Shown here: positions 7,880 to 41,314 of the stretch, one piece after another
Position numbering within the stretch: position 1 is the stretch's first letter
Layout: every line of letters begins with the position of its first letter
Source of the DNA: an uncultured Alphaproteobacteria bacterium
Lineage (GTDB): Bacteria; Pseudomonadota; Alphaproteobacteria; Rhizobiales; Aestuariivirgaceae
Reading direction: 5' to 3'
Assembly: GCA_937873445.1 (NCBI GenBank)
Contig: CALMWF010000007.1
Coordinates: 1-54,525, forward strand
Length of the DNA stretch: 54,525 nucleotides
Translations under genes and position numbers: made by a program
The notes under the pieces: model-generated
The model's input: the letters and a program-made list of their open reading frames with translations, nothing else
The model's database searches: none
What the model was told of the DNA's origin: nothing

Positions 7880-7955
7880 GGGCCCGTAGCTCAATGGTTA
7901 GAGCTGACGGCTCATAACCGTCTGGTTCCAGGTTCGAGTCCTGGCGGGCCCACCA
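7880..7955 (+). tRNA. tRNA with CAU anticodon, probably tRNA-Ile2 (lysidine-modified); alternatively tRNA-Met
   Basis: A 76-base cloverleaf with encoded CCA: acceptor GGGCCCG / CGGGCCC, D-arm GCTC-AATGGTTA-GAGC, anticodon arm GACGG-CTCATAA-CCGTC (CAT at 7913-7915), T-arm CCAGG-TTCGAGT-CCTGG. Three kinds of tRNA carry CAU. The initiator is unlikely because the 1-72 pair is intact G-C. The short D-loop and the consecutive pairs C4-G69 and C5-G68 are features used by TilS to choose tRNA-Ile2, and elongator tRNA-Met of E. coli lacks them. I therefore favour isoleucine decoding of AUA; this is an inference. Confidence 0.93.
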
Positions 7956-7977: not shown

Positions 7978-8937
7978 TTATTCCGGCTGCAGCAAATGGC
8001 CCCGGGCGGCGGCGCGGAGCGTGCACAGGGAAACCACTGTGATGATGGCGGTGGCGGCCAGCAGCACCAGCCACAGCAGCGGCGCCATCCACGCGGCGCC
8101 CAGATCATGGGCGGCCTTGAAGCAGGCGATGGCAAAGGCGGCACTGGGGAAGGTATAGGCCCACCAGCTGACGGCATAGGGCACTTTGGCAAAAGCCTTC
8201 ACAAGGCTGACCAGCACCATCGCCACAAAAACCGCCAGGCCGAAAATGATCAGCGAGGCGGGGTTGCTGCCGCCCATGAGATTGGTGAGCGCCACTGACC
8301 CCACGGCAGGCGGGGCAAGCAGAATGACGAGTGTTGGCCGCAGACGCTCCGGCAGGGGCGGCCCCACCACGATGCGCCACAGCAGAATGGGCTGGATCAT
8401 CATCCACAGCAGGGCACCGATGCCGAACAGCATCCAGGACAGCGCCAGCCAGCCCAGCTTGGCGCCGATGACGGGGGCCAGAATATTGCCCACCAGCGGA
8501 ATGAGCAGCGGCGGGGTGAGGGTGGCAGCCTCGCGCGGGGCGTTGATGAGGCCGCGCACCGTCCACACACCGATGACGAGATGAACCACCACCGCCACCA
8601 GCCACAGCCAGTTGGCAGCCACCGGGGCATAGGGCAGGGCGGCAGCGGCCAGCAGCATCATGCCGATGGTGATGGCGCCGGCAAAGGCGGCGCGCACGGG
8701 ATGTCTGAGGTCGCCCTTGAGGGCCTCGGGGTGGCGGAACAGGCGGAGCAGATGAAGGCTCGCCACCACCAGCCAGACCATGGCGGCCAGCGCCAGAATG
8801 ACTTCGCCGACAAGGCGCGGCGCCCCCAGCAGCATGGCGGCTTCGCGCCAGGCCAGACCCAGGCCGCCCAGGCCCATGGGCGCAGCAAAGAGGGGGAGGG
8901 GCAGATGGGCTAGGCTTTTGGCAGAAGTGTCAGTCAT
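7978..8937 (-). CDS. TehA/SLAC1-type transporter (voltage-dependent anion channel family)
   Basis: A 319-residue protein with about ten hydrophobic helices, starting L-P-L-P-L-F-A-A-P-M-G-L-G-G-L-G-L-A-W-R. It carries the family signature P-L-L-I-P-L-V-G-N-I-L-A-P in mid-protein and S-W-W-A-Y-T-F-P near the end. The family includes TehA (tellurite resistance), Mae1 dicarboxylate carriers and plant SLAC1 anion channels, so the likely job is movement of an anion or organic acid across the inner membrane; the substrate cannot be told. An AGGA site precedes the start. It stands alone, with the tRNA just beyond its 3' end. Confidence 0.9.
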   Translation of the reverse strand: MTDTSAKSLAHLPLPLFAAPMGLGGLGLAWREAAMLLGAPRLVGEVILALAAMVWLVVASLHLLRLFRHPEALKGDLRHPVRAAFAGAITIGMMLLAAAALPYAPVAANWLWLVAVVVHLVIGVWTVRGLINAPREAATLTPPLLIPLVGNILAPVIGAKLGWLALSWMLFGIGALLWMMIQPILLWRIVVGPPLPERLRPTLVILLAPPAVGSVALTNLMGGSNPASLIIFGLAVFVAMVLVSLVKAFAKVPYAVSWWAYTFPSAAFAIACFKAAHDLGAAWMAPLLWLVLLAATAIITVVSLCTLRAAARGHLLQPE

Positions 8938-9082: not shown

Positions 9083-10462
9083 TCAGGGCCGCCAGTAGCG
9101 GAACCAGTCATGCACTTCGGGGCATTCAAAATTGCCGCGCATGTCGATGAGGGGGGCCCCCTTTTTGGCCAGCCCCTTCAGGGTTTCGGCATCGAGCTGC
9201 TGGCGGAACACGGTGTGACCGAGGGTGATGATGATGGCGTCATAGGGGCCTTCGGCGGCGGGATCGTCGATCAGCTTCACGCCGCGGCCGCCTTCGAAGT
9301 GATCGTCGAAGGCCACGGGATCGAAGTTGAACACATCAGCGCCGCGCGTCCACAGGGCATCCATCATGGGGAAGGCCTTGGAGTTGCGGGTGTCGGGGCA
9401 GTCTTCCTTGAAGGCGCGGCCGAGCACCAGAACCTTCATGCCGTGCAGGCCATGGCGGCGCGGCCCGGCCAGCTGCTCCACCTTTTCCACCAGGAACAGG
9501 GCGGTGTGCTCATTGACCTGGCGGGCGGCAGAAACCAGTTCCATGGCAAGGCCATGGCGGCGGCCGGCGTCCACCAGATAATAGGGGTCAACGGCGATGC
9601 AGTGGCCACCCACCAGACCGGGGCGATAGTGGTGGAAATTCCACTTCGAGCCGGCGGCGGCGATGACATCGGAGGCGCGCAGGCCCATCTTGTCGAACAG
9701 GGCCATCATCTGGTTCATCAGCGCAATGTTCACGTCGCGCTGGGTGTTTTCCAGAATCTTGGCGGCTTCCGCCACCTTGATGGAGGCGGCCTTGAACAGA
9801 CCGGCCTTGATGACGCGGGCATAGAGGGCCTCAACGAAATCGGCGACCACGGGGGTGGAGCCCGACACGATCTTCTTGATGTCCGGCAGCTTGCGGGTGG
9901 GGTCGGCGGGGTTGATGCGCTCCGGCGAATAGCCGAGGTAGAAATCGACGCCTTCCTTCATGCCGGAATGATGCTCGATAACCGGCTGGCAGCGTTCCTC
10001 GGTGGTGCCGGGATCAACGGTCGATTCGAAAATCACCACGGCGCCGCGCTTGAGATTCTGGCCGATGGACCTGGAAGCGGCAATGAGCGGCGAGTAGTCG
10101 GGATGATTGTGGCTGTCGACCGGGGTTGGCACGCAGACAATGATGACGTCGGCGTCCTTCATGGCGGCGGGGTCGGTGGTGTAGGAGGCGTCGGCCGCGC
10201 GCAGGTCCTCGCCCGAGACCTCGCCGGTGAAATCCACGCCGCTGCGCAGTTCGGCAACCTTCTTTTCATTGATGTCAAAGCCAATGGCATGCGAGCCCCT
10301 GGCAAAGCCAAGCACCAGCGGCAGCCCGACATAGCCCAGGCCGATGATGGCAACACGGGCGGTGGCCGGATCCGGCAGGGCGGCGGGCTGTTTGGTGATC
10401 AGACGAACATGAGAGGTGGCGCCCCGGACCGGCTCTTCCGCGGACAACTTCTGAATCTGCAT
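9083..10462 (-). CDS. nucleotide-sugar dehydrogenase, UDP-N-acetylhexosamine (TviB/WbpA) type
   Basis: A 459-residue NAD-dependent enzyme oxidising a UDP-sugar at C6 to the uronic acid. The Rossmann motif is V-A-I-I-G-L-G-Y-V-G-L-P at residues 37-48; the catalytic cysteine is Cys288 in G-L-V-G-G-H-C-I-A-V-D-P-Y-Y; G-Y-S-P-E-R-I-N-P-A-D lies between, and F-K-E-D-C-P-D-T-R-N-S-K in the UDP-binding C-terminal domain. The S-P-E-R-I-N-P and G-G-H-C-I-x-V-D-P-Y-Y versions are typical of enzymes acting on UDP-GlcNAc or UDP-GalNAc, not of UDP-glucose dehydrogenase (G-G-x-C-L-P-K-D). It is divergent from the glycosyltransferase operon, whose substrate it probably supplies. Confidence 0.92.
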   Translation of the reverse strand: MQIQKLSAEEPVRGATSHVRLITKQPAALPDPATARVAIIGLGYVGLPLVLGFARGSHAIGFDINEKKVAELRSGVDFTGEVSGEDLRAADASYTTDPAAMKDADVIIVCVPTPVDSHNHPDYSPLIAASRSIGQNLKRGAVVIFESTVDPGTTEERCQPVIEHHSGMKEGVDFYLGYSPERINPADPTRKLPDIKKIVSGSTPVVADFVEALYARVIKAGLFKAASIKVAEAAKILENTQRDVNIALMNQMMALFDKMGLRASDVIAAAGSKWNFHHYRPGLVGGHCIAVDPYYLVDAGRRHGLAMELVSAARQVNEHTALFLVEKVEQLAGPRRHGLHGMKVLVLGRAFKEDCPDTRNSKAFPMMDALWTRGADVFNFDPVAFDDHFEGGRGVKLIDDPAAEGPYDAIIITLGHTVFRQQLDAETLKGLAKKGAPLIDMRGNFECPEVHDWFRYWRP

Positions 10463-10537
10463 GGTAAAATGGCCCCAAGCTGCTTGTTGTTATGCAACCA
10501 TCTAGGCGCTGAAGTTGTGCAGGGATGGTTAAGGCCT

Positions 10538-10619
10538 GGGGGAAAATCCCCCCACAGTTAAGAGCTGGTTTATGGGCGGTCAGCAAGCGTCACAAACCCG
10601 ACTAGGGGATTTTAACCCC
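10538..10619. promoter_or_regulatory. two GGGG-N7-CCCC palindromes in the divergent promoter region
   Basis: GGGGGAAAATCCCCC (10538-10552) and GGGGATTTTAACCCC (10605-10619) lie 67 bases apart between the dehydrogenase and the glycosyltransferase operon. Both have G-runs and C-runs around a 7-base A/T-rich core. They could be binding sites for a shared regulator of the two divergent units; no regulator is identified. Confidence 0.4.
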
Positions 10620-10685
10620 ATCGCAAGCATTCACGGTTAATAGGTTAAAGGTGCCGGAGTGTGTTTCCGGAGACGGTGAGTGTGT

Positions 10686-11924
10686 ATGCTTGCGTTGGTA
10701 GCGATCGAATGGCTGTTTGCCATTCTTGTGTTGGTGGTGTTCACCAATCGCTATGTGTTCGGGTCGGCCCTGCGCCTTGCCGACCGGCGGACCACGCCTG
10801 CGCACGACCAGGACCCGAGGGTGTGGCCCAGTGTGGCCATCATTGTTCCGGTCTTCAATGAAGGCCCGTCCATCGTCAGGACGGCCGAGAGCTTTGCCAG
10901 CCTTGATTATCCGCGCGACCGGCTGAGCGTCTGCTTCGTCGACGACCGCTCCACCGATGATACCTTCCGCCATCTCATGGCGGTGGAGGCCAAATTTCCG
11001 TGGATGCGGGTGGAGCAGAACCCGGTCAACATGGGCAAGCGCCTGGGCATCAAGAATGCCGTGCTGCGCGACCGCTCCGACCTCATCCTGTCGGTTGATT
11101 CCGATGTGGTGGTGGAAAAGCAGGCGCTGCGCAATCTGGTGCGCCATCTCATCACATCAGGATCGGATGCGGTGGGCGGCTGCGTGTTTGTGTCCAATGC
11201 CGATGTCAACTGGCTCACCCGCATGCAGGCGGTGAAATACTGGATCGGCTATCAGTTTCTGAAAAATCTCGAAAACGCCTTCAGCCATGTCATGTGCCTG
11301 TCGGGCTGCCTTACCCTCTACCGGCGCGCGGCCTTGGTGGCGGTGGACGGTGATCTGGAGAAGCGCACCTTCCTCGGCGATGAAGTCAAATACGGCGAGG
11401 ACCGGTTTCTCACCCGCAAGCTGGTGGAACACGGCTTCCGCACCCGCCTGTGCTTCACGGCCCGCTGCTATACCAAGGCGCCCGCCACGCTCAATCACTA
11501 TCTGAGCCAGCAGCTGCGCTGGCGCCGCTCCAACACCGTGGATTTTCTGACGGCCATTCCGCACCTGAACCAGTTTCATCCCATGGTTCTGGTGCATTAC
11601 ATGGCGATTGCGCTGCTGCTGTTCTTCTATCCGCTGTTTCTGGTCAGCCAGATCATGCGGCTCGGCTTCGTCGTTCCGATGCTGGAACATGCGCTGCTGG
11701 TGTCGGTCTTTGCCATGGCCTATGAGCTGAACAAGCACCGCCTGCCGAAGATGGCGCAAACCTCGGGCGTGTGGTTTCTGGCCATGGCCTTCGTTTTTCC
11801 GGTCATGTACATCACCATGACGCCGCTGGCCATTGCCACCCTCGGCACCACAAGCTGGGAAACGCGCGGTCATAACAAGGTGGCGGCGGCCCAGAAGGCG
11901 GCAGCACCGGGAGGGGGGACATGA
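10686..11924 (+). CDS. family 2 glycosyltransferase, NodC/hyaluronan-synthase-like processive synthase
   Basis: A 412-residue inner-membrane enzyme. After one N-terminal helix (about residues 4-22) comes a GT-A catalytic domain: V-P-V-F-N-E-G, D-D-R-S-T-D-D near 87, D-S-D at 138-140 for metal and UDP-sugar, G-E-D-R near 237-240 for the catalytic acid, and Q-Q-L-R-W-R-R-S near 275-282 holding the growing chain. Three or four helices follow, forming the export pore. The Q-x-x-R-W plus R-S arrangement and L-S-G-C-L-T-L-Y-R-R resemble NodC, chitin and hyaluronan synthases. GGTGAG precedes ATG 10686; a GTG at 10680 is the alternative. The end overlaps the next gene by ATGA. Confidence 0.92.
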   Translation: MLALVAIEWLFAILVLVVFTNRYVFGSALRLADRRTTPAHDQDPRVWPSVAIIVPVFNEGPSIVRTAESFASLDYPRDRLSVCFVDDRSTDDTFRHLMAVEAKFPWMRVEQNPVNMGKRLGIKNAVLRDRSDLILSVDSDVVVEKQALRNLVRHLITSGSDAVGGCVFVSNADVNWLTRMQAVKYWIGYQFLKNLENAFSHVMCLSGCLTLYRRAALVAVDGDLEKRTFLGDEVKYGEDRFLTRKLVEHGFRTRLCFTARCYTKAPATLNHYLSQQLRWRRSNTVDFLTAIPHLNQFHPMVLVHYMAIALLLFFYPLFLVSQIMRLGFVVPMLEHALLVSVFAMAYELNKHRLPKMAQTSGVWFLAMAFVFPVMYITMTPLAIATLGTTSWETRGHNKVAAAQKAAAPGGGT

Positions 11925-13480
11925 ACCATCCCTCCGCCAAGGCGCCGCTTGCCCGCTCTGTGCCGGTGCGTGCGGTGCTTTATGTCGGCCAGCATGCCGA
12001 TGAAATCCAGCACATCTACAATGGCCACATCGGCGAGGCTGAGTTCCACTATTGCCGCCAGGTGGCCGAGGCGCTGACGGCGCTGCGGGCCAGGCCCTTC
12101 GATCTCATTGTGCTTGACCAGCGCGAGGGGGACAATGCGCTGCGGCTGCTGCTGCCGCTGGCGGCCACGGTTAGTGCACCCATGCGGGTTGTGGTGCTGG
12201 CCCGGCCCGAGCAGGTGAGCAGTTTCCTGCGGCTTTCAGGTGTGGCCCAGGTCATTACCGTGCCGGTGCAGCCAGGCCAGTTGCTGCGGGCCAGCGGCTT
12301 TGCCGTGAAGCCCGCCGCTGCCCGGCTGTCGCTGCGGCCGCCGCGCCGTGATGGCCCGGCCACATCCGACACGCCGGCGCGGGTGTCGCGGCTGTCGGCG
12401 GCGGGCATGACGCTGGTGTCCAACCTCTACAAGCGCGGCGCCTTCCTGTTGCTGGCGGCGCTGTTTTCGGCCTTTGCCTTCTATGGGCTGATGATCGGCT
12501 ATTTTCTTCTGTCGTCGGGCTGGGCCGCCCCGGTCACCCTGAGCCGCGGCCATGAAATGGTGGCGCGCGCCGAACGCGAACTGGGCGATCTCAAATTCAA
12601 CCTCAATCTGGTGAGCCAGCGCCTGTCGGAAGCGCAGCTTGAGGAAGACAAGGCCAGCCGCGCCCATGCGGATGCCAAGATTCTGGTGAGCTATGCCACC
12701 GGCACGGTGAGCAAGGAACTGGAGGCGCGCGAGCGCCAGGCCAGGACCACCGGCAACCAGATTGCCCGCCTGAAGAAGGTGCGCGACGGCTTTGCCCGGC
12801 AACTCAAATCCGGCGGCATGGCCGATGATCTGGGCCGGCTTTACAGTCAGCGGCTCATCGACAAATCGACCTTCGAGGCGGGCACGCTGGGCCTGCTGGA
12901 GGCGGCCCAGCGCGTGTCGGCCGTGGAAGGCGAGATTGCCGAACTGGAAACACAGGCCGCCAATGAAGGGGCCATCCATGACATGCTGGTGTCGCTGCGT
13001 GATCAGCTTCAGGCGGGGCAGATGAGCACCATTACCGCGGCCTCGGCCGATCTCATGCTGCTCACCAAACAGGCGGTGGATGCGCGTTCGGCCTTTGAGC
13101 AAAGCAAGACGCAGATGGACTCGGCCCGCCACCGCCGCGAAATCCTGAGCCAGAGCAAGACCGATCTGGAGGCGCAGATTGCCGCCCTGCAGGCAACCCC
13201 GCTGGGCCGCGCCATCAATGGCCGGGTCGATGTGTTGTTCGTGCCCTATGGCAACGAGAAGAACTTCAAGCCGGGCACGCGGCTGGTGTCGTGCCGCCTC
13301 ACCATTCTGTGGTGCGGCAGGGCAGGCACCGTGGGCGAAGCCATTCCGGGCGAGTCAACGGCGGTGCATCCCTTCTTCGGCAAGCCGCTGCGCGGACAAT
13401 TCGTGGAGGCCCACCTCGCCAATCCGGAGGCGGCCACCCGGGAGATCATTCATGCGAAACGCTCTCCGCTGTTCTTCTAG
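11921..13480 (+). CDS. inner-membrane coiled-coil protein with N-terminal degenerate receiver domain (HlyD-like)
   Basis: A 519-residue protein. Residues about 16-130 look like a response-regulator receiver fold: V-R-A-V-L-Y-V, F-D-L-I-V-L-D66-Q, V-V-V-L-A, V-I-T-V-P-V. The acidic pair after the first strand is missing and the conserved Lys-Pro lysine is replaced, so phosphorylation is doubtful. One membrane helix (about 173-197) follows, then a long coiled coil (about 205-425) and a C-terminal beta-rich part (V-D-V-L-F-V-P-Y-G to the end) like HlyD/Alg44-type periplasmic adaptors. The strong GGAGGGGGG site and the ATGA overlap tie it to the synthase gene. Probable role: coupling and regulating polymer export (inference). 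Confidence 0.75.
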   Translation: MNHPSAKAPLARSVPVRAVLYVGQHADEIQHIYNGHIGEAEFHYCRQVAEALTALRARPFDLIVLDQREGDNALRLLLPLAATVSAPMRVVVLARPEQVSSFLRLSGVAQVITVPVQPGQLLRASGFAVKPAAARLSLRPPRRDGPATSDTPARVSRLSAAGMTLVSNLYKRGAFLLLAALFSAFAFYGLMIGYFLLSSGWAAPVTLSRGHEMVARAERELGDLKFNLNLVSQRLSEAQLEEDKASRAHADAKILVSYATGTVSKELEARERQARTTGNQIARLKKVRDGFARQLKSGGMADDLGRLYSQRLIDKSTFEAGTLGLLEAAQRVSAVEGEIAELETQAANEGAIHDMLVSLRDQLQAGQMSTITAASADLMLLTKQAVDARSAFEQSKTQMDSARHRREILSQSKTDLEAQIAALQATPLGRAINGRVDVLFVPYGNEKNFKPGTRLVSCRLTILWCGRAGTVGEAIPGESTAVHPFFGKPLRGQFVEAHLANPEAATREIIHAKRSPLFF

Positions 13481-14723
13481 CCTGTCGCGCCTTGGCGTGA
13501 CGGTGGTGGTGGCCGCGGCACTGGCACTGAGCGGCTGCGGCCGGATGCCGGGGTTCATGCAGCGCCAGCCGCAAGGCCCGGCAAGCAACGCGCTTGCGGT
13601 TCCGCCGGGCATGGCGGAACCGGCACCGGCCAAGGCTTCCGGCCTGGCCAAGGTGCCGGTGACGGCGGCGCACACCGGCCAGCCACCCATCAGCCAGCCG
13701 GTGCAGATCATTCCGGCGCGTGATGTGACGCCCGCCAGTTCGCGCTGGTGCGAATATCTGAAGGAAGATTCCGCGGCTGAGGCCACGGTGCTGCGGTCGC
13801 CGTCGGTGTCGGGCAGCGTCAATGACTCGGGTGATGCCAGTGTTGGACTGGCGCTCAGCCTGTCCAGCCTGCACAAGGCCAATCTGGTGGAGGAGGCAGC
13901 ACAGGTGAAGTGCCGCCGCTATGCCGCTGAAATGGGCCTGCAGAAAATCGCCTTTCTGGCGCCGCAGGGACTGACCGCTGCGGGCTATCGCGCCAAGGCC
14001 GATGCCATTTTGCGCGAGCGTCAGGCCATGTCCGGCCTCAAGGCCGAGATCCGCCGGCAACTGGCGGCGGGCGCCATCAACAAGGAAAAGGCCACCCAGC
14101 TTTCGGTGATGGTGGATCAGCTGGCGGCGGAGGCCAATGCCGCGCGCTCCCAGGCCGACCGCCGGCTGACGGATGAAGCGGGGCCGACGGGTGACGTGCG
14201 CCGTCTGGGGCTTGATCTCATTGCCGCGGAACGGGACATGGATGCCCTCAACAGCCGGATGCGCACGGCGGATGCCATGGATGTGTCGCTGCATGCGGGC
14301 TGGAACCAGGGCAGCGTGGCCGATGGCCTCGATGTCACCAATGACTCCTTCAGCGGCAAGGTCAGTTTTTCCATGAAACTGGGGGCCCTCAACCCGTCGC
14401 GTTTCGAGCATGAGCGGCGCGCCAGCGAAGCCAAGATTGCCTCGCTGCGCGAGGAGGAGGGGGGCGCGCTGTGGCAGATCGCCGTGCTGCGCCATGCCCA
14501 TGAACGGGCCATGGCGGGGCTGGCCGATTCCCGCAGCAAGCTGGAAACTGCCACGGCGGAGGCGGAGCGGCTGGTGGCGGCGCTGCGCGGGGTGCGCAAT
14601 CCGGAATTTGCCGGAACGCTGATTGCGGCGCGCATTCAGGTCATGAAGCTCAGGGCCGAAACCGCCGGGGTGGACGGCTCACTGGCTGAAATCAAGGCCA
14701 ATATGGACCGCCTGCGGGGCTGA
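13452..14723 (+). CDS. outer-membrane lipoprotein with TolC-like repeats
   Basis: A 423-residue lipoprotein: hydrophobic signal then lipobox L-S-G-C with Cys29. After a Pro/Ala-rich linker (residues about 35-105) come two similar halves, each a beta-strand pair followed by long helices: strands near S-V-S-G-S-V-N-D-S-G-D-A-S-V-G-L-A-L-S-L and near V-S-L-H-A-G-W, then F-S-G-K-V-S-F-S-M-K-L-G-A. The twofold strand-helix-helix layout resembles TolC-type outer-membrane factors, but it is diverged and a search might not find it. ATG 13452 lies inside the end of the previous gene (29-base overlap) after GGGAGA. It is the likely outer-membrane exit for the polymer. Confidence 0.68.
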   Translation: MRNALRCSSSLSRLGVTVVVAAALALSGCGRMPGFMQRQPQGPASNALAVPPGMAEPAPAKASGLAKVPVTAAHTGQPPISQPVQIIPARDVTPASSRWCEYLKEDSAAEATVLRSPSVSGSVNDSGDASVGLALSLSSLHKANLVEEAAQVKCRRYAAEMGLQKIAFLAPQGLTAAGYRAKADAILRERQAMSGLKAEIRRQLAAGAINKEKATQLSVMVDQLAAEANAARSQADRRLTDEAGPTGDVRRLGLDLIAAERDMDALNSRMRTADAMDVSLHAGWNQGSVADGLDVTNDSFSGKVSFSMKLGALNPSRFEHERRASEAKIASLREEEGGALWQIAVLRHAHERAMAGLADSRSKLETATAEAERLVAALRGVRNPEFAGTLIAARIQVMKLRAETAGVDGSLAEIKANMDRLRG

Positions 14724-14844: not shown

Positions 14845-17550
14845 TTACGAGAAGATGAAATCGTCGGCCACCAGGCTGGCAGCGCTCACCCCGGCGAAGG
14901 TGATGGTATCGCCGGAGGCGAAGGCCAGAACCGCGCCCTGGGCCGTGTCGGTGAGGTGCGACTGCACGCCGGCAAAATCACTGACGCCAAGGCCTGTGAG
15001 CCAGACCCGGTCGGTGCGTCCGGCACCGGCCCAGAAATCGGTGAGGGTGTCCTGACCCAGTCCGGCGGTGAAGACAAAGACATCAGCCCCCGCGCCGCCG
15101 GTGAGCAGGTCATTGCCCGCCTCGCCGAGGAGGTAGTCGTTGCCGCCCGCGCCATCGAGCACGTCATTGCCCGCCCCGCCGGTCAGGCGGTTGATGGCGG
15201 CATCGCCGGTGATGATGTCGTTGAAGGCAGAACCCCAGACATATTCGACGCCGGAATAGGTGTCGCCCGCCGCTTCGCCGCCGGTGCCGCCGGTGACGAG
15301 ATTGACGATGACGCCCGCCGTTGCCGCCTGATAGTCGGCCGCATCGGCATCGCCGTCGCCGCCGATCAGCGTGTCGGCGCCGTTGCCGCCCACCAGCACG
15401 TCGTTGCCGGCACCGCCCGAAAGCGTGTCGTTGCCGTCGAGGCCGACGAGGCGGTTGACATTGGCATCGCCGCTGATCTGGTCATCAAAGGCCGAGCCGG
15501 TGACGTTCTCGACATTGACATAGACATCGTTGGCGGCTTCAGCACCCGACCCCCTGCCGGTGGCCAGGTTCACCACGACGAGGCCCCAGCTGTCGTCATA
15601 GGTGACGGTGTCAACACCCGCGCCGCCATCGACATAGTCATAGCCGCCGCCGGTGTCGAAGGTGTCGTTGCCAGCGCCGCCATACATGTGGTCGGAACCC
15701 TGCAGGCCCACCAGGCGGTTGTTGCCCGCATCACCGATGAGCGTGTCGTCAAAGTTGGAGCCGGTCAGGTTCTCGATGCCGGTGAGCGTATCGCCCAGGG
15801 CTTCGCCCGCCGTGCCGGTACCGGTGGAAAGGCTCACCTCCACGCCATCGCGCGAGTAGCGGTAGTCCGCGGTATCAACACCGGCGCCGCCGATCAGCGT
15901 ATCCGCACCGAGACCGCCATAGAAGCGGTCATCGCCCGTGCCGCCATCCAGCGTGTCATCACCCGCGCCGCCCTGCAGTGCGTCGTCGCCGCCAAGGCCG
16001 AGGAGGACGTTGGCGCCATCGCCGCCGGTGATCACATCGTCATAGGCAGAGCCGGTGACGTTTTCGATATTGCTGAAGCTGTCGCCGTCGGCCAGGCCGC
16101 CCACGCCATTGCCGGACATGAGATTGACGGTGACAGCCGCCGTGGAGGCGGAGAAGACGAGCGTGTCAACACCGTCGCCGCCGTTCATCACATCGGCGCC
16201 GAGGCTGCCGTAGAAGGTATCGTCACCCGCCAGGCCCATAAGGACGTTGTCAGCAGCCGAACCGGTGAGCGTGTCATTGAAGGCCGAGCCGATGACGTTT
16301 TCGATGGCAATGAGCGTGTCGCCGGTGGCGTCGCCGCCGGTTGCCGTGGCGGTGGCCAGATCAACGGTGACCGCAGCGGAGGAGGCGGCATAGGAGGCCG
16401 TATCCAGGCCATCGCCGCCGTTCAGCGTGTCAGCGCCCGCGCCACCCTGCAGCGTGTCGTCACCCGCCAGACCCAGAAGGACGTTGGCGGCGGCAGAGCC
16501 GGTGAGTGTGTCATTGAAGGCCGAGCCGGTGAGGTTTTCGACCGCCACCAGCGTGTCGCCCGCAGCGTCGCCGCCCGTGCCCGTGCCCGTGGCAAGGTTC
16601 ACGCTGACCGCCGCAGACGAGGCGGTGTAACTGGCGGTGTCCACGCCATCGCCGCCATCAAGGCGGTCAGCACCCGCGCCGCCGGTCAGAAGGTCATCAC
16701 CCGCCAGGCCGATGAGGACGTTGGCGGCGGCCGAGCCGGTGAGCGTGTCATTGAAGGCCGAACCGGTGGCATTTTCGATGGAAATGAGCGTGTCGCCCGT
16801 GGCATCGCCGCCGCTGGCGGTGGCGGTGGCCAGGTTCACAGTGACGGCTGCCGCCGAAGCCGCATAGGCGGCGGTGTCCTGGCCGTCGCCGCCATCGAGA
16901 CGGTCAGCACCCGCGCCGCCCGTCAGAAGGTCATTGCCGGCCTCGCCATAGAGGGTGTCATTGCCGGCACCGCCGTCGACACTATCGTCGCCGCTTCCAA
17001 GCCAGACCGTGTCATTGCCCGCTTCGCCATAGACCGTATCTGCCACGGCATAGGCAGGGTTGGTGTCAAACACGTCGTTGCCGGCCCCGAGCCAGAAGGT
17101 CATGGGCGCGGCCCCGCCGCCCACGTAATCGCCATAGGCAGAGGTGATGACGGTTTCAATGTTGGCAAAGGTGTCGCCGTTGGCATCACCATAATAGCCG
17201 CCCGGCGAGCGCAGCACATAATAGAGGCCGCCAATGCCATTAATATCCGTGGTGGCAAAGGCCATGTCCACCGGGCCGGTGGCGTCCGCGTAGCTCACCG
17301 TGTCGGTGCCGGGGCCGCCATCCATGCTGTCGCTGCCCGTGCTGCCGATGAGCGTGTCGTCGCCTTCACCGCCCCGCAGGGTGTCGTTGCCGGTGCCGCC
17401 CACCAGCGTGTCATTGCCGGAGTCGCCATTGAGAATGTCGGAGCCGCCCATGCCGTAAAGCGTATCGTTGCCCGCGCCGCCGTTAAGGGTGTCGCTGCCG
17501 GGGCCGCCGGTGATGATGTCGTCAAATGTGGTGCCATTCTGTGTGGGCAT
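14845..17550 (-). CDS. large RTX calcium-binding repeat protein, type I secretion substrate
   Basis: A 901-residue acidic Gly/Asp/Asn-rich protein, about 90% made of RTX nonapeptides (G-G-x-G-x-D-x-L/I-x), for example G-G-A-G-N-D-T-L-Y-G near the N-terminus. Four 79-residue units in perfect register occupy residues 218-533; each has beta-strand filler (A-Y/S-Y-x-A-S-x-A-A-V-x-V-N-L-A) followed by an RTX block. Looser copies follow. The end (A-D-V-F-V-F, D-T-L-T-D-F, D-D-F-I-F-S) resembles the serralysin-type C-terminal secretion signal. There is no protease HExxH motif and no Sec signal. ATG 17550 follows CAGGGA; an upstream TTG overlaps its own ribosome-binding site. Likely a surface adhesin or matrix protein. 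No ABC exporter gene is nearby. Confidence 0.9.
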   Translation of the reverse strand: MPTQNGTTFDDIITGGPGSDTLNGGAGNDTLYGMGGSDILNGDSGNDTLVGGTGNDTLRGGEGDDTLIGSTGSDSMDGGPGTDTVSYADATGPVDMAFATTDINGIGGLYYVLRSPGGYYGDANGDTFANIETVITSAYGDYVGGGAAPMTFWLGAGNDVFDTNPAYAVADTVYGEAGNDTVWLGSGDDSVDGGAGNDTLYGEAGNDLLTGGAGADRLDGGDGQDTAAYAASAAAVTVNLATATASGGDATGDTLISIENATGSAFNDTLTGSAAANVLIGLAGDDLLTGGAGADRLDGGDGVDTASYTASSAAVSVNLATGTGTGGDAAGDTLVAVENLTGSAFNDTLTGSAAANVLLGLAGDDTLQGGAGADTLNGGDGLDTASYAASSAAVTVDLATATATGGDATGDTLIAIENVIGSAFNDTLTGSAADNVLMGLAGDDTFYGSLGADVMNGGDGVDTLVFSASTAAVTVNLMSGNGVGGLADGDSFSNIENVTGSAYDDVITGGDGANVLLGLGGDDALQGGAGDDTLDGGTGDDRFYGGLGADTLIGGAGVDTADYRYSRDGVEVSLSTGTGTAGEALGDTLTGIENLTGSNFDDTLIGDAGNNRLVGLQGSDHMYGGAGNDTFDTGGGYDYVDGGAGVDTVTYDDSWGLVVVNLATGRGSGAEAANDVYVNVENVTGSAFDDQISGDANVNRLVGLDGNDTLSGGAGNDVLVGGNGADTLIGGDGDADAADYQAATAGVIVNLVTGGTGGEAAGDTYSGVEYVWGSAFNDIITGDAAINRLTGGAGNDVLDGAGGNDYLLGEAGNDLLTGGAGADVFVFTAGLGQDTLTDFWAGAGRTDRVWLTGLGVSDFAGVQSHLTDTAQGAVLAFASGDTITFAGVSAASLVADDFIFS
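15952..16899 (-). repeat. four tandem 237-bp repeats inside the RTX gene
   Basis: Four units of exactly 79 codons run head to tail. At the DNA level the phrase GGTGAGCGTGTCATTGAAGG (with small changes) recurs at about 16264, 16501 and 16738, each 237 bases apart. High identity between copies suggests recent duplication or gene conversion, so copy number may vary between strains. Confidence 0.85.
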
Positions 17551-17934
17551 CGGTTGAATTCCCTGTTGCGGCGTAGAGCCGGAAGTCACAATCCAATGCA
17601 ACTCCTAATCCGCCAGATGGTGCGGAGGGCTTAACCTGATCGGTGAAATTATAATTAATGCCTGGCCAGGGCGGGTTTCTTCGCAACTCTGGTTTCCGAA
17701 TGATTGATCCGGGTTGCAGTATGCCAATTGTTAAGGCTGGCGGCTGAATGGCGTGGGGCGGAGGAAAATGATGCGTGCGGATTCAAACATCATTTACCAA
17801 GAAGTGAGTGGTTGCAGAAGATTGACAAAGCCAAAGGTGTTTTAGGAACAGCAGAAAGACTCCATTAACGCCGCTTAACATAGTCTGCAGGCTGATTGAA
17901 AAAAGCGCTTAAGTTTGTCGAAAAGGCCTGCCTG
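17551..17934. other. divergent intergenic region between the RTX and histidine-kinase genes
   Basis: No gene is visible in these 384 bases, which are AT-richer than their surroundings. Candidate signals: CCAATTGTTAAGG at 17724-17736, which shares CCAATTGTTA with the ftsZ upstream site; TTAA-N6-TTAA at 17865-17878 (a CtrA-like pair with spacing one short of the usual seven); and TTGACA at 17822-17827, without a convincing -10 partner. A TTG at 17896 would lengthen the kinase by 13 residues. Confidence 0.45.
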
Positions 17935-36378: not shown

Positions 36379-36734
36379 TGGTGAAACTGCTCAATGCCCT
36401 GCTGGTGCTGGCGGTGCTGGCTGCTGCAGCCTTTCTCTATGGTCTGGAGCACCGCACGCGCGGGGCGGAAAAGGCCATTGCCGGGATAAAACGCGACCTG
36501 GCCGAGGAGGCCGAGGCCACAAAGCTGCTCAAGGCCGAATGGACCAGCCTGATCCGGCCCGACCGGCTGCAGAAGCTGGCCGAGACGGGAGGCAAGCTGA
36601 AACCCGCCGCCGTGGACCAGTATGTCAGCCTCAACCAGTTGCTGAACCGGCTGCCGGATGCGCCAGTGCGGGCGCCGCAGGCGGCGAGTGATGATCCCAT
36701 TGGTGCCATTCTCAAGGACATGGAAGAACAATGA
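36378..36734 (+). CDS. ftsL: cell division protein FtsL
   Basis: A 118-residue bitopic protein: a short cytoplasmic start, one membrane helix (residues about 4-22), then a periplasmic heptad-rich helix (about 25-65) and a Pro/Ala tail. FtsL joins FtsB and FtsQ and activates FtsW/FtsI septal synthesis. Identification is by position between rsmH and ftsI and by topology; the sequence itself is poorly conserved across bacteria. Start ATG 36378 overlaps the rsmH stop (TGATG), and the end overlaps ftsI by ATGA. Confidence 0.87.
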   Translation: MVKLLNALLVLAVLAAAAFLYGLEHRTRGAEKAIAGIKRDLAEEAEATKLLKAEWTSLIRPDRLQKLAETGGKLKPAAVDQYVSLNQLLNRLPDAPVRAPQAASDDPIGAILKDMEEQ

Positions 36735-38431
36735 GCGGCGATGACACCATGACCGCCAGCCCGCGCGCGCTTGCCGGGCAGAACCGCATCCGGCTGGTGG
36801 CGCTCGGCTTCTCGCTGGCCTTTCTGGCCATTGCCGGCCAGCTTGGCACGCTGACCGTGCTGCACGGGCGGAACGGCGCTGAAACCGCCAGCGCCGTGCC
36901 GGAAACGCGCCTGCCGCGGCCCGACATTGTGGACCGCAACGGCACCATCATGGCAACCGACATTGCGGTGGCCTCGCTTTATGCCGACCCGCGCAAGGTG
37001 CTCGATGTCGACGAGGCGGTGGAACTGATCACCGCCGCCTTGCCCGATGTTGATGCCGGGCAACTGCGCGCCAAGCTGACCAAGCCCGGTTCGGCCTTTG
37101 CCTGGATCAAGCGCCAGGTATCGCCGGAGGAGCGCGACACGGTCTATAACCTCGGCATTCCCGGCGTTGCCTATGTCAATGAGCGGCGGCGCGTTTATCC
37201 GCTGGGAAGGCTTGCGGCCCATGCGGTGGGCTATGTCGATCTCGACACCAGGGGCATTGCCGGCATCGAGAAATATCTCGACACTGACGGGGCCATCTAC
37301 ACCGCTTCGCTGGCCGATCCGGAGAAGCCGGAAATGGCCCCGGCGCAAATGTCCATGGACATGCGGGTGCAGCATGCCCTGACCGATGAATTGCAGAAGG
37401 CCATTACAAAATTCCGCGCCAAGGCCGGCGGCGGTGTCATCATGGATTCGGAGACCGGCGAAATCCTCGGCATGGTGTCGCTGCCCGACTACAACCCCAA
37501 TGAGGAAGACAAGCACCTCACCAGCGCCCAGCAGAACCGCATGACCTCCGGCGTGTTCGAGCTTGGCTCGGTGATCAAGGCCATCACCTTCGCCATGGCC
37601 TTTGACTATGGCGTGACCGATCTGCACGGCTCCTATGATGCGCGCTATCCGCTGGTTATCGGCAATGCCCGCATCGACGACTATCACGCCAAGCACAAGG
37701 TGCTGACGGTGCCGGAAATCTTCGTCAATTCCTCGAATATCGGCACCGCCAAGATGGCGCTGGCGGTGGGCGAGGAAAACCACCAGGCCTTCCTGCGCAA
37801 GGTGGGGCTGTTTGACCGCATGACCACGGAAATTCCGGAAAGCGCCAAGCCGCTGCTGCCCCGGCGCTGGAGCAAGCTGGTTACCGCCACGGCGGCCTTC
37901 GGCCATGGCTTCGCGGTGCAGCCGCTGCAGGGCATTGCGGTCATTGCCGGCATTCTCAACAACGGCAAAATGTGCCCGCCCACCTTTTTGAAGCGCACGG
38001 CCGAGGAGTGCCAGGTGCTGGCCAAGGACATCGTCAAGCCCGCCACCTCGGAGAAGATGCGCTATCTGTTCCGCCTCAATGTGGAGGAGGGCACAGCCGA
38101 AGGGGCTGACGCCATTGGCTATCGGGTGGGCGGCAAGACCGGCACGGCCGAAAAGGTCATCAACGGCCGCTATTCCAAGGATCACCGGCTCAATTCCTTC
38201 ATCGGCGCCTTCCCCATGGAAAAGCCGAAATATGTCATTCTGATCATGCTGGATGAACCGCAGCCGCTGCCGGAAACCTTTGGCTTTGCCACCTCCGGCT
38301 GGAACGCCGTGCCGACGGCGGGCAAGGTCATCGGGCGGGTCGCCCCCATTCTGGGCGTTGCGCCACAATTCACCCAGAAGGATCTGGAAAAACTCGCCAG
38401 GCAAAGGGCCAAGGCGAAGAAGGACGGCTGA
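36731..38431 (+). CDS. ftsI: peptidoglycan D,D-transpeptidase FtsI (PBP3)
   Basis: A 566-residue class B penicillin-binding protein, the septal cross-linking enzyme. It has one N-terminal helix (about 20-42), a pedestal domain ([12 protein letters not shown] at about 60, [11 protein letters not shown] near 154) and the transpeptidase domain with all three active-site motifs: S280-V-I-K283, S334-S-N336 and K469-T-G471. The usual S-x-x-K form here reads S-V-I-K. Length matches family members. It overlaps ftsL by four bases. Confidence 0.96.
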
Positions 38432-38433
38432 CG

Positions 38434-39894
38434 ATGGTTAACCGGCTGGTTTCTCTGGTGGGGCAGGATGGCGGGGTGCCGGCGGGTGCTGGCGACATTG
38501 CCGCCCTGGGCATCACCGCCGACAGCCGCCGGGTGGCACCCGGTTTCATTTTTGCCGCCCTGCCGGGCAGCAAGGTTGATGGCACCCGGTTCATTCCGCA
38601 GGCGCTGGCCCAGGGGGCAGTGGCGGTCATTGCCCAGCGCGGGGCCTATCAGGGCCCGGGGGTGGTGATCGAAACCGACAATCCGCGCCGCCTCTATGCG
38701 CTGATGGTGGCGCGGCTCAGTGGTCCGCAGCCCGACACCATTGTGGCGGTGACCGGCACCAACGGCAAAACCTCGGTGGCGGCCTTCGTGCGCCAGATCT
38801 GGTCGGCGCTCGGCTTCCGCGCCGCCAGCCTTGGCACCATTGGCGTGGTGGGACCGTCGGGGGCGCAGTATCTGTCGCACACCACGCCCGACCCTGTGGA
38901 ACTGCACGCCATTGCGGCGGGGCTGAAGCAGGACCATGTGGACCATCTGGCGATTGAGGCATCAAGCCATGGCCTCGACCAGTTCCGGCTGGACGGCCTC
39001 AGGCTGTGTGCCGGCGGCTTCACCAATCTCACCCGCGACCACATGGATTATCATCCGACCGAACAGGCCTATTTCGACGCCAAGATGCGGCTGTTCGAGG
39101 AACTGCTGCCGCAGGGGGCACCCGCCGTCATCAATGTTGATGCGCCCTATGGCGCCGAGGCGGCGGCACGGGCGCAGAAGGCGGGGCTTGCGCTTTTCAC
39201 GGTGGGCCGCAAGGGCGAGCAGCTGAAGCTCGTCAGCGAGCGGCGCGAGGGCATGGTGCAGGTTCTGAGCCTGGCCACGGCGGGTGGCACGCATGAGGTG
39301 ATGCTGCCGCTGGCCGGGGCCTTTCAGGCGGCCAATGCGCTGGTGGCGGCGGGGCTGGTTCTGGCCACGGGCGGCGAGGAAGCGCAGGTGCTGCGCGCGC
39401 TGGAAAGCCTGAAGGGGGCGCCGGGACGTCTGGAACAGGTGGGCCAGACGGCGGCTGGCGGCGCGGTGTTTGTGGATTATGCCCACACGCCCGATGCCCT
39501 CGACAACGCCATTCTGGCGCTCAAGCCCTATACCACCGGCAAGCTGACGGTGGTGTTCGGCTGCGGCGGCGACCGCGACCGCGGCAAGCGCCCGCAGATG
39601 GGGGCCATTGCGGCGCGGCTGGCCGACCGGGTGATCGTCACCGACGATAATCCGCGCACGGAGGATCCGCGCGCCATCCGGGCCGAAATTCTGGCGGCAG
39701 CCCCCAAAGCCGAGGAGATTGGCGACCGCGCCAGGGCCATTCGGGCGGCGGTTGAGGCGTTGCAGGCGGGCGACGTGGTGCTGGTGGCGGGCAAGGGCCA
39801 TGAGCCGGGCCAGACGGTGGGAACCGAGGTGCGGCCGTTCAGCGATCATGACGCGGTGCGGGCTGCCCTTGCCGGTGAGGACTATCATGGCTGA
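38434..39894 (+). CDS. murE: UDP-MurNAc-L-Ala-D-Glu--2,6-diaminopimelate ligase
   Basis: A 486-residue Mur ligase adding the third stem residue. ATP loop G-T-N-G-K-T-S at 108-114; the [11 protein letters not shown] and [10 protein letters not shown] segments are typical; D405-N-P-R408 ([11 protein letters not shown]) is the signature for meso-diaminopimelate rather than lysine. So the organism has DAP-type peptidoglycan. It starts two bases after the ftsI stop and overlaps murF by eight bases. Confidence 0.97.
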
Positions 39895-41314
39895 GCGGGC
39901 ATTGTGGACCCTTGACGAGGCCGCGGCCGGAGCGGGCGGCAGGCTTTCCGGGCGGGCGGCGGGCGCGCTGAACGGGGTGTCCATCGACACGCGCAGCATT
40001 GCGCCGGGTGATCTGTTCGTAGCCCTGAAGGGCGACAGCCGCGACGGCCACGATTTCGTGGTGCAGGCTTTGCAGGCGGGTGCCGGGGCGGCGCTGGTGT
40101 CGCGGGTTACACCTGAGATGGAAGCGGCGGGCGCGCTCATTGTGGTGCCGGATGATGTGCTGAAGGGTCTGGAACGGCTGGGCCGGGCGGCGCGGGCACG
40201 CAGCACAGCGGGCATTGCCGCCATTACCGGCAGCGTGGGCAAAACCTCGACCAAGGAAATGCTGCGGGCGGCTCTTTCGGCCTGTGGCGCCACCCATGCT
40301 TCGGCGGCGTCCTTCAACAATCACTGGGGCGTGCCGCTGACCCTGGCGCGGATGCCCGCCACGGCCCGCTTCGGCATTTTTGAAATCGGCATGAACCATG
40401 TGGGCGAGATCACGCCGCTGGTGGCCATGGTGCGGCCGCAGGTGGCGGTCATCACCAATGTGGCGGCCAGCCACCTGGGCAATTTTGCCTCGCTGGACGA
40501 GATTGCCGCCGCCAAGGCGGAAATCTTCACCGGTGTGGAGAAGGACGGCACGGCGGTTCTGAACCGCGACAGCGCGCATTATGAATTTCTGGCCGCCCAG
40601 GCGCGGGCCCAGGGCATCCGGCACATTGTGGGGTTCGGCATGCACGCCGAGGCCGCAGTGCGGATCGAGGATCTGGTGCTGCATACAAGCTGTTCCTGCG
40701 TCACCGCCGCGGTGATGGGCGAGCGCGTGATGTACAAGCTTGGCGTGCCGGGCGAGCACATGGCGCTGAACAGTCTGGCGGTGCTGGCCACCGCGAAGCT
40801 TCTGGGCGCTGATCTGGCGCGCGCCGCCCTGGCGCTGGCCGAGGCCACACCGGCCAAGGGCAGGGGCCAGCAGAGCAAGCTCACACTGCCCGGCGGCGAA
40901 TTGCTGCTGATCGATGAAAGCTACAATGCCAATCCGGCCTCCATGGCGGCGGCACTGGCGCTGCTGGGGCGGGTGAAACCGCGCCACGGCGGCCGCCGCA
41001 TTGCGGTGCTGGGCGACATGCTGGAACTGGGCCGCCATTCGGCCGAATTGCATGCCGGGCTGGCCCGCCCCATGGACGAGCAGGGCATTGATGTTCTATA
41101 TGCCGCCGGCCCCGACATGGCCCATCTGTTTCAGGCGATTCCCGCCGGAAAACGGGGTGTCCATGCGGCCCGGGCGGCGGATCTTGAAGCCGTGCTGCTG
41201 GCAAGCCTCAGGGCCGGGGATGTGGTGATGATCAAGGGGTCGAACGGCAGCCGCATGGGTCCGCTGGCCGATGCCATCCGGGCGAAGTGGCCGCCCGCCA
41301 ACAAGGACGTGTAA
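39887..41314 (+). CDS. murF: UDP-MurNAc-tripeptide--D-alanyl-D-alanine ligase
   Basis: A 475-residue Mur ligase adding the D-Ala-D-Ala dipeptide in the cytoplasm. The ATP loop is [12 protein letters not shown] at 113-124; [20 protein letters not shown] and [11 protein letters not shown] are family hallmarks. ATG 39887 lies inside the last codons of murE (8-base overlap), and its TAA overlaps the mraY ATG by one base (TAATG). Confidence 0.97.

Follow-up and report, generated by a model that had tools for sequence, protein, structure and literature searches.

Four genes in a 54,525-nucleotide contig from an uncultured Aestuariivirgaceae bacterium of the Rhizobiales (hereafter the window) probably make up an exopolysaccharide system of the synthase-dependent kind, with a TolC-type exit of its own. 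This contig, C7, belongs to a genome (G000) of 2.58 Mb in 47 contigs that is 98% complete. The genes lie where the first-pass annotation of this DNA had placed them and specify a nucleotide-sugar dehydrogenase, a family 2 glycosyltransferase (GT2), a putative inner-membrane adaptor and an outer-membrane lipoprotein with a predicted TolC fold (outer-membrane factor, OMF). The features are as follows.

9083..10462, minus strand: dehydrogenase, TviB-like UDP-N-acetylhexosamine 6-dehydrogenase, predicted to make a uronic-acid sugar donor
10463..10679, no strand: intergenic region between the divergent dehydrogenase gene and synthase operon, from gene positions
10680..11924, plus strand: GT2 membrane synthase, NodC/hyaluronan-synthase-like, start GTG at 10680 or ATG at 10686
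11921..13480, plus strand: putative inner-membrane periplasmic adaptor, layout from a predicted structure
11966..12295, plus strand: degenerate receiver (REC) domain inside the adaptor, from predicted fold and alignment
13452..14723, plus strand: TolC-fold outer-membrane lipoprotein (OMF), ATG start at 13452, lipobox LSGC

The GT2 and adaptor genes overlap by 4 bases and the adaptor and OMF genes by 29 bases. The intergenic region presumably holds the promoters of both the dehydrogenase gene and the GT2 operon, and the divergent arrangement is kept in the relatives that show both genes. Compared with the nearest relative (G014), the ratios of non-synonymous to synonymous substitution (dN/dS) were 0.095 for the dehydrogenase, 0.103 for GT2, 0.241 for the adaptor and 0.230 for the OMF; two genes neighbouring the module gave 0.225 and 0.136. 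Purifying selection acts on all four module genes; these ratios, the gene order kept in the genus and the recurrence of the set in two distant lineages show that they are not chance open reading frames (ORFs).

The dehydrogenase matches the N-terminal, central and C-terminal UDPG_MGDP_dh domains of Pfam (UDPG_MGDP_dh_N, 9e-36) and passes the NCBIfam NDP-sugDHase cut-off (360.6 bits against 189.8). Its best NCBIfam score was obtained with TviB, a UDP-N-acetylglucosamine (UDP-GlcNAc) dehydrogenase model (372 bits), compared with 111 bits for the UDP-Glc dehydrogenase model TuaD, and the nearest solved chains are the UDP-ManNAcA dehydrogenase 4r16 and Cap5O. By these matches it is a nucleotide-sugar dehydrogenase closest to the UDP-GlcNAc/ManNAc types, with a UDP-N-acetylhexosamine as its predicted substrate. 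Because the TviB equivalog cut-off of 592 bits is not reached, we call it TviB-like. The dehydrogenase at locus L017 scores similarly (361 bits for NDP-sugDHase, 354 bits for TviB).

The GT2 protein matches Pfam Glyco_tranf_2_3 (1.2e-29). Its best NCBIfam score is for NodC (171 bits, below the 550-bit cut-off of the NodC equivalog TIGR04242), and its best solved relatives are hyaluronan synthases, with hyaluronan synthase 1 (8smm) as the top chain (9.2e-35). The signatures DD, DxD, GEDR and QQxRW are unchanged in 9 of 9 aligned homologues, an alignment that excludes the partial G008 and G012 proteins (the former with one stop) and that of G009. Hydropathy shows one N-terminal and several C-terminal hydrophobic segments, and no PilZ domain was matched in GT2. 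These motifs, membrane flanks and relatives assign the protein to the hyaluronan synthase (HAS)/NodC/PgaC group, and it may act processively.

The OMF carries the lipobox followed by a Pro/Ala-rich linker to about residue 90, and in the window genus this lipobox is consistent with anchoring in the outer membrane. Its model shows a TolC protomer fold with two β-hairpins, each followed by long helices, and Foldseek matches 1–39 and VIA structure-comparison matches 1–29 are all TolC-family channels. These predicted structures clearly support a TolC/OMF fold, in agreement with the first-pass description of a TolC-like lipoprotein.

The adaptor model consists of a pseudo-receiver (aa 17–125), a transmembrane helix (aa ~174–192), a coiled-coil hairpin (aa 204–424) with its tip at residues ~310–314, and a C-terminal β domain (aa 436–511). 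A single transmembrane helix, an antiparallel coiled-coil hairpin and a β domain fit the layout of periplasmic adaptors, and EmrA (4tko) ranks first in Foldseek (E = 1.9e-4); the predicted structure moderately supports the assignment of the protein as resembling a periplasmic adaptor. Cys458 and Cys465 in the β domain of the adaptor, and Cys100 and Cys154 of the OMF, are invariant in the aligned rows of all three lineages described below, which suggests structural disulfides in both proteins.

The N-terminal domain of the adaptor, which the first-pass annotation had missed, adopts a receiver fold by structure comparison (VIA). The 50 VIA matches listed for the adaptor align to this part (rank 32 stretched further) and say nothing on the adaptor fold itself. 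The phosphoacceptor position Asp66 is kept in 10 of 10 rows; the acidic pair after β1 and the Lys after β5 are lost when the domain is aligned with receiver-type proteins of three kinds from elsewhere, namely three proteins of other genomes, of which one is likewise without the full acidic pair. The domain at this place is receiver-like and not a PilZ domain for cyclic di-GMP (c-di-GMP). The pseudo-receiver, which both distant adaptors described below lack, is an addition in one genus and presumably has a regulatory role.

Within the genus, in which the gene order is conserved as dehydrogenase (minus strand), then divergent GT2–adaptor–OMF, GT2 was found in 12 of 37 genomes (E ≤ 1e-30). The adaptor, full or split, is present in the same 12, with a receiver-only fragment in G033; these 13 were the only matches among 61 relatives searched, all of them within the genus. 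The OMF is complete or almost so in these 12 genomes and persists as short fragments in three more (15/37). At E ≤ 1e-80 the dehydrogenase was detected in 12 of 37 genomes. Ten of these are among the 12 module genomes, each with 74% identity or more; the other two, G023 and G027, belong to the 25 module-free genomes and have homologues of 42–43% identity. In G008 and G012 the contig starts inside GT2, so the dehydrogenase is out of view. G007 has a second dehydrogenase copy (41% identity), and the OMF of G014 lies on another contig (C23). The adaptor and OMF of G009 (L023/L034) are split across frames, perhaps through assembly errors, and were counted as present and left out of the alignments, as were the genes of G022 (all four seen by tblastn only) and the OMF of G014; the OMF of G013 was left out of alignments A1, A3, A7 and A9 and included in A10.

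For genes that lie side by side, as these do, joint presence is weak evidence by itself, and co-loss is the stronger. G005, G010 and G023 retain the neighbours of hydantoinase and histidine-kinase type but have lost GT2, the adaptor and the module dehydrogenase, and their OMF is reduced to a shortened ORF without the β-hairpins. In G033 only the receiver part of the adaptor is left, beside a hydantoinase-type gene. The exit decays once the synthase is lost, which supports the four genes as one evolutionary module. The shortened OMF ORFs at the empty site (216–247 residues; L067 8238-8981, L068 7690-8373 and L069 8562-9212) are still open and alike, which points either to slow decay or to a new use as a small coiled-coil protein. 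A 180-residue ORF with only the receiver-like part of the adaptor, beside the hydantoinase-type gene (L027 3091-3633), marks another stage of loss. A gene of 660–680 codons downstream of the module in several relatives was considered as a polymer lyase and rejected: it is hydantoinase/oxoprolinase-type in the four cases tested (L017, L018, L026 and a partial copy in L023), and a gene of this kind, identified by eye, persists where the module is lost, so it is a mere neighbour. A hydantoinase-type gene comes next after the OMF in several module genomes other than G000, G014 and G029.

The gene-neighbourhood survey proposed in the first-pass annotation found the same four genes together in three lineages, in differing order, and so contradicts the lack of co-occurrence that the annotation had named as refuting its reading. 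Besides the window genus, these are G617, a single genome from a different class of the phylum, with GT2–adaptor–OMF–dehydrogenase on one strand and start/stop overlaps at GT2/adaptor and OMF/dehydrogenase, and Paraburkholderia sp. PGU19 (source Physopelta gutta), with adaptor–OMF–dehydrogenase–GH16–GT2 on a 1.44 Mb plasmid. Among the best 25 of 223 plasmid records matched by the window GT2, the PGU19 module GT2 is top by E-value (1e-46, 179 bits); the other 24, which include NodC and a Paenibacillus GT2, reach at most 131 bits. The G617 and PGU19 GT2s score best with the PgaC/IcaA model (146 and 129 bits). The dehydrogenases of the window, G617 and PGU19 score 372, 399 and 393 bits with TviB and 79–150 bits with UDP-Glc dehydrogenase models. 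The sugar chemistry, a UDP-HexNAc-type dehydrogenase with a HAS/NodC/PgaC-group synthase, is thus supported as consistent in three lineages by sequence comparison, and the earlier proposal that the four genes fit one job agrees with a single evolutionary module.

The GH16-like protein in the PGU19 unit (L065 12494-13171) scores 22.4 bits in Pfam against a cut-off of 22 and has an EIDIE motif that we take to fit the GH16 catalytic pattern; it is a hint of a possible polymer-trimming enzyme and a β-linked product. EAL or GGDEF-EAL proteins are encoded near the module in PGU19 (L065 7446-8765) and in G024 (L024 2136-4244), a possible link to c-di-GMP.

The module parts list matches the logic of alginate synthesis with a different, TolC-fold exit, and we therefore infer a uronate-containing amino-sugar polymer that would be passed from GT2 to the adaptor to the OMF. 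The dehydrogenase would oxidise a UDP-N-acetylhexosamine, most likely UDP-GlcNAc, to the uronic acid, and GT2 would polymerise this donor, by itself or in alternation with UDP-GlcNAc or some similar sugar, threading the growing chain through the inner membrane. The adaptor beside GT2 may carry the chain over the periplasm inside or along a ring of its very long α-hairpins and dock on the TolC-fold OMF, through which the polymer would leave. In the alphaproteobacterial genus the pseudo-receiver, on the cytosolic side of the adaptor, would stand where Alg44 has its PilZ domain, and it probably links synthesis to a cellular signal through protein–protein contact, not through phosphorylation. In its most specific form the proposal is tentative, and we rate it somewhat below an even chance: a self-contained, single-unit tripartite machine of synthase, adaptor and TolC-fold channel with its own dehydrogenase, which makes an N-acetylhexosaminuronate, glycosaminoglycan-like polymer, has in one genus a pseudo-receiver, not a c-di-GMP domain, as its gate, and uses adaptor and channel families unrecognised by Pfam and NCBIfam.

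Several observations weigh against an exopolysaccharide system with a TolC-type exit, and they concern family membership, structural similarity, gene content and distribution. Neither the adaptor nor the OMF has a Pfam or NCBIfam match above cut-off; at E ≤ 1 the adaptor gives no Pfam HlyD or biotinyl-lipoyl match and the OMF no Pfam OEP (PF02321) match, for which reason the OMF is called TolC-fold and not an OEP family member. With hhalign, the adaptor gave no meaningful match to a three-row adaptor profile (EmrA/CusB/L074; 0.6%) and the OMF only a 35-column match to a four-row TolC profile (7% probability), and two PDB profile searches for TolC/HlyD membership returned best E-values of 0.23 (designed-type coiled coil) and 0.011 (ribosomal protein S20). 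The motifs that the first-pass annotation reported as seen directly are therefore clear Pfam matches in the dehydrogenase and GT2 but not in the adaptor and OMF, and the profile searches it proposed recovered GT2 synthases but nothing usable for the other two proteins; for the OMF, the fold was resolved by structure prediction alone.

The superpositions are loose as well. The adaptor aligns to EmrA with TM-scores of 0.21/0.32 and a root-mean-square deviation (rmsd) of 14.3 Å, and unrelated long helices follow close behind EmrA in Foldseek (a designed bundle at 1.1e-3 and Smc at 1.9e-3); the OMF gives query TM-scores of 0.33–0.46 and rmsd of 8–11 Å over the 37 Foldseek matches with E ≤ 0.001. 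The secondary structure of the adaptor model gives no evident sign of the split lipoyl domain that adaptors have. The canonical RLS/RLT tip motif, RxxxLxxxxxxS/T (PMC3391258), is absent at the predicted tip, which reads Leu307-x6-Asp314 with Asp in the Arg position; the tips of the L060 and L065 adaptors read L-x5-T, and E. coli EmrA at the tip position itself reads R-x3-L-x6-G. The earlier label HlyD-like is thus loose: EmrA ranks first at a low TM-score, a HlyD Pfam match and the tip motif are both absent, and the protein has a pseudo-receiver added. A lipobox was not seen by eye in the OMFs of G617 and PGU19, and the window four-gene unit holds no polymer-modifying gene.

The module is also rare outside one genus of metagenome-assembled genomes (MAGs). 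A search of genome contigs with the adaptor, which is limited to places that match one of two peptide patterns, gave 10 loci, all in uncultured MAGs titled Alphaproteobacteria (4), Hyphomicrobiales (4), Proteobacteria (1) or just bacterium (1). In the order sample, 12 of 397 genomes match the adaptor, three at full length (all in the genus) and nine in the receiver part only; in the phylum sample 14 of 398 match, of which G000 and G617 are real and 12 cover the receiver part only. Eleven of the 20 distinct marginal loci from these two samples were inspected, and four held response-regulator-like ORFs by eye. Matches were found in 4 of 300 genomes of the order of G617 (G617 and three marginal), 1 of 60 relatives of G617, 2 of 303 genomes of its class (one marginal) and 1 of 352 genomes of the window class, the window genome itself. 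Beyond the genus and G617, no further full-length adaptor was found in the order, phylum and class samples, in which at most three candidates per genome (order and phylum samples) or at most five or six (G617 order and both classes) were scored, so that diverged copies were possibly missed. Among 72,556 plasmid records the adaptor was found in one, and the viral contigs searched with the OMF gave no relative. A plasmid of Caballeronia sp. SBC2 (NZ_CP049321.1 34397-34705) contains a 112-residue, 47% match to the coiled-coil part of the PGU19 adaptor, possibly a further copy or a remnant in another genus.

Other roles for the OMF and other products were weighed. GT2 and the adaptor might secrete polymer into the periplasm only, with the OMF as a drug or small-molecule export route or a structural element. 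Carriage of polysaccharide by the OMF is something we infer, most TolC-fold channels work in efflux pumps and protein secretion, and no experimentally proven synthase exit via a TolC channel turned up in the literature searched, which was mostly without subscription journals. However, the OMF and adaptor genes overlap, a complete or almost complete OMF accompanies the synthase in all 12 of the 37 genomes that have the latter, and three genomes that lost the synthase show a shortened OMF. The OMF gene also belongs to the same unit in G617 and PGU19, and none of the three units includes an inner-membrane pump gene; these points make a periplasmic product unlikely. Far less probable still is that the adaptor and OMF are part of a type 1 secretion system (T1SS) for an RTX nonapeptide-repeat protein, a typical T1SS substrate that adjoins the OMF in G000 (window 14845-17601, minus strand), G014 and G029 (the other two at L078 1432-3753 and L025 2698-4659). 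This neighbour occurs in only 3 of 12 module genomes (the next gene was not determined in G008 and G022), and is on the opposite strand in the window, and the window genome has two other OEP-positive TolC proteins. The window, G617 and PGU19 units all lack an ABC transporter; for this reason and for the count of 3 in 12, the T1SS assignment was rejected and the T1SS-like label of the first-pass annotation was dropped.

As for the product, the best NCBIfam score of GT2, with NodC, would suit a chito-oligosaccharide-like or short signal saccharide instead of a long matrix polymer. That score is far under its cut-off, the best solved relatives are hyaluronan synthases, and the dehydrogenase linked to GT2 suggests a uronate donor, which NodC is not known to use; the GH16-like hydrolase in the PGU19 unit also fits polymer processing, and we regard a NodC-like product as quite improbable. 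Somewhat less improbable, although still unlikely, is a neutral or poly-N-acetylglucosamine (PNAG)-like amino-sugar chain with the dehydrogenase serving another surface glycan. The PgaC/IcaA scores of the G617 and PGU19 GT2s and the divergent transcription of the dehydrogenase in the window genus agree with such a chain, whereas all three units contain the dehydrogenase, whose gene overlaps the stop codon of the OMF gene in G617 and is seen in 10 of 12 module genomes, against homologues at 42–43% identity in only 2 of 25 module-free ones. A uronate-containing polymer leaving through the OMF remains the preferred reading.

Pfam OEP is found elsewhere in the window genome on C3 and C38 and weakly on C21 (whole-genome search). 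The C38 protein (L072 1339-2796) is a canonical OEP-positive TolC lipoprotein beside an oppositely oriented ORF whose start, by eye, presumably resembles large secreted adhesins, and it is the likelier channel for protein secretion in this genome. Close to the module, a tRNA-Met gene (7880-7955) lies between an ORF ending at 7824 and a SLAC1-type anion channel gene (7978-8937). Further along, window positions 36731-41314 encode a penicillin-binding protein and two Mur ligases (Pfam), apparently the start of a cell-division/peptidoglycan cluster.

By which route polymers made by synthases exit Gram-negative cells in the absence of a BcsC, AlgE or PgaA barrel is an open question. Here all parts lie in one short unit with one copy on a plasmid of a named, sequenced Paraburkholderia strain, making the TolC-tunnel idea directly testable by gene removal. 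If the proposal is true, the module would contribute two protein families that Pfam and NCBIfam do not cover, and it would be a new route to polymers containing uronate.

A synthase–HlyD–TolC exit, XcsAB-TolC, was proposed in 2018 (Maeda et al.) for cyanobacterial cellulose; a later review describes the model as without experimental validation and says that the location of its genes outside one operon raises questions (PMC12430437). The gene set and predicted folds reported here fit a system of that type, in which a GT2 synthase, a HlyD-like adaptor and a TolC-like outer-membrane channel would act jointly as the proposed tripartite exit. XcsA, however, is a PilZ-bearing cellulose synthase whose gene does not share one operon with those of its partners, whereas the present module links a uronate-donor dehydrogenase, a HAS/NodC-like synthase in which PilZ was not matched, an adaptor bearing a pseudo-receiver and, within the unit, an OMF dedicated to it. 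The alginate system (AlgD-Alg8-Alg44-AlgK-AlgE) shares the sugar-nucleotide dehydrogenase, the GT2 and the membrane protein layout of Alg44, the partner of Alg8, which is described with a cytosolic regulatory PilZ domain, one transmembrane helix and a periplasmic membrane-fusion-like part (PMC8461298). Alginate leaves through a TPR lipoprotein and a β-barrel instead of a TolC fold, the Alg44 PilZ is replaced here by a pseudo-receiver that two distant lineages lack, and the window unit is without epimerase, acetylase or lyase genes. In a phylum-wide survey of cyanobacterial exopolysaccharide genes, no Alg44-type protein with PilZ and HlyD is reported (PMC4594306), and an operon survey notes that a group of cellulose operons of alphaproteobacteria lacks BcsC, as a hint of a new mechanism of export (PMC7112194).

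The pairing of a synthase with a HlyD-domain-type protein also resembles rhizobial BgsB, the partner of the mixed-linkage β-glucan synthase BgsA, in a pair described as forming a putative exit channel; BgsA differs from this GT2 in being cellulose-synthase-like and c-di-GMP-binding, and neither 'TolC' nor 'outer membrane' occurs in the main text of that paper (PMC9495663). EmrAB-TolC and other tripartite efflux systems share the long α-hairpin adaptor resembling EmrA and the TolC-fold channel, but their inner-membrane partner is an MFS, RND or ABC transporter and not a glycosyltransferase, and the canonical RLS motif is absent here. NodC and class I hyaluronan synthases share the GT2 motifs, hydrophobic segments and nearest sequence scores; the module GT2 differs in its sub-cut-off NodC score and its link to a proposed envelope-spanning exit. 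No dedicated unit that brings all parts together, with a uronate donor enzyme, a pseudo-receiver and adaptor and channel families unrecognised so far, turned up in the literature searched. The different architecture suggested in the first-pass annotation therefore holds in that the predicted exit is a TolC fold and not a TPR/β-barrel, but the XcsAB-TolC model and the BgsB partner precede it: the architecture idea is not wholly new, and the new part is this one-unit module variant.

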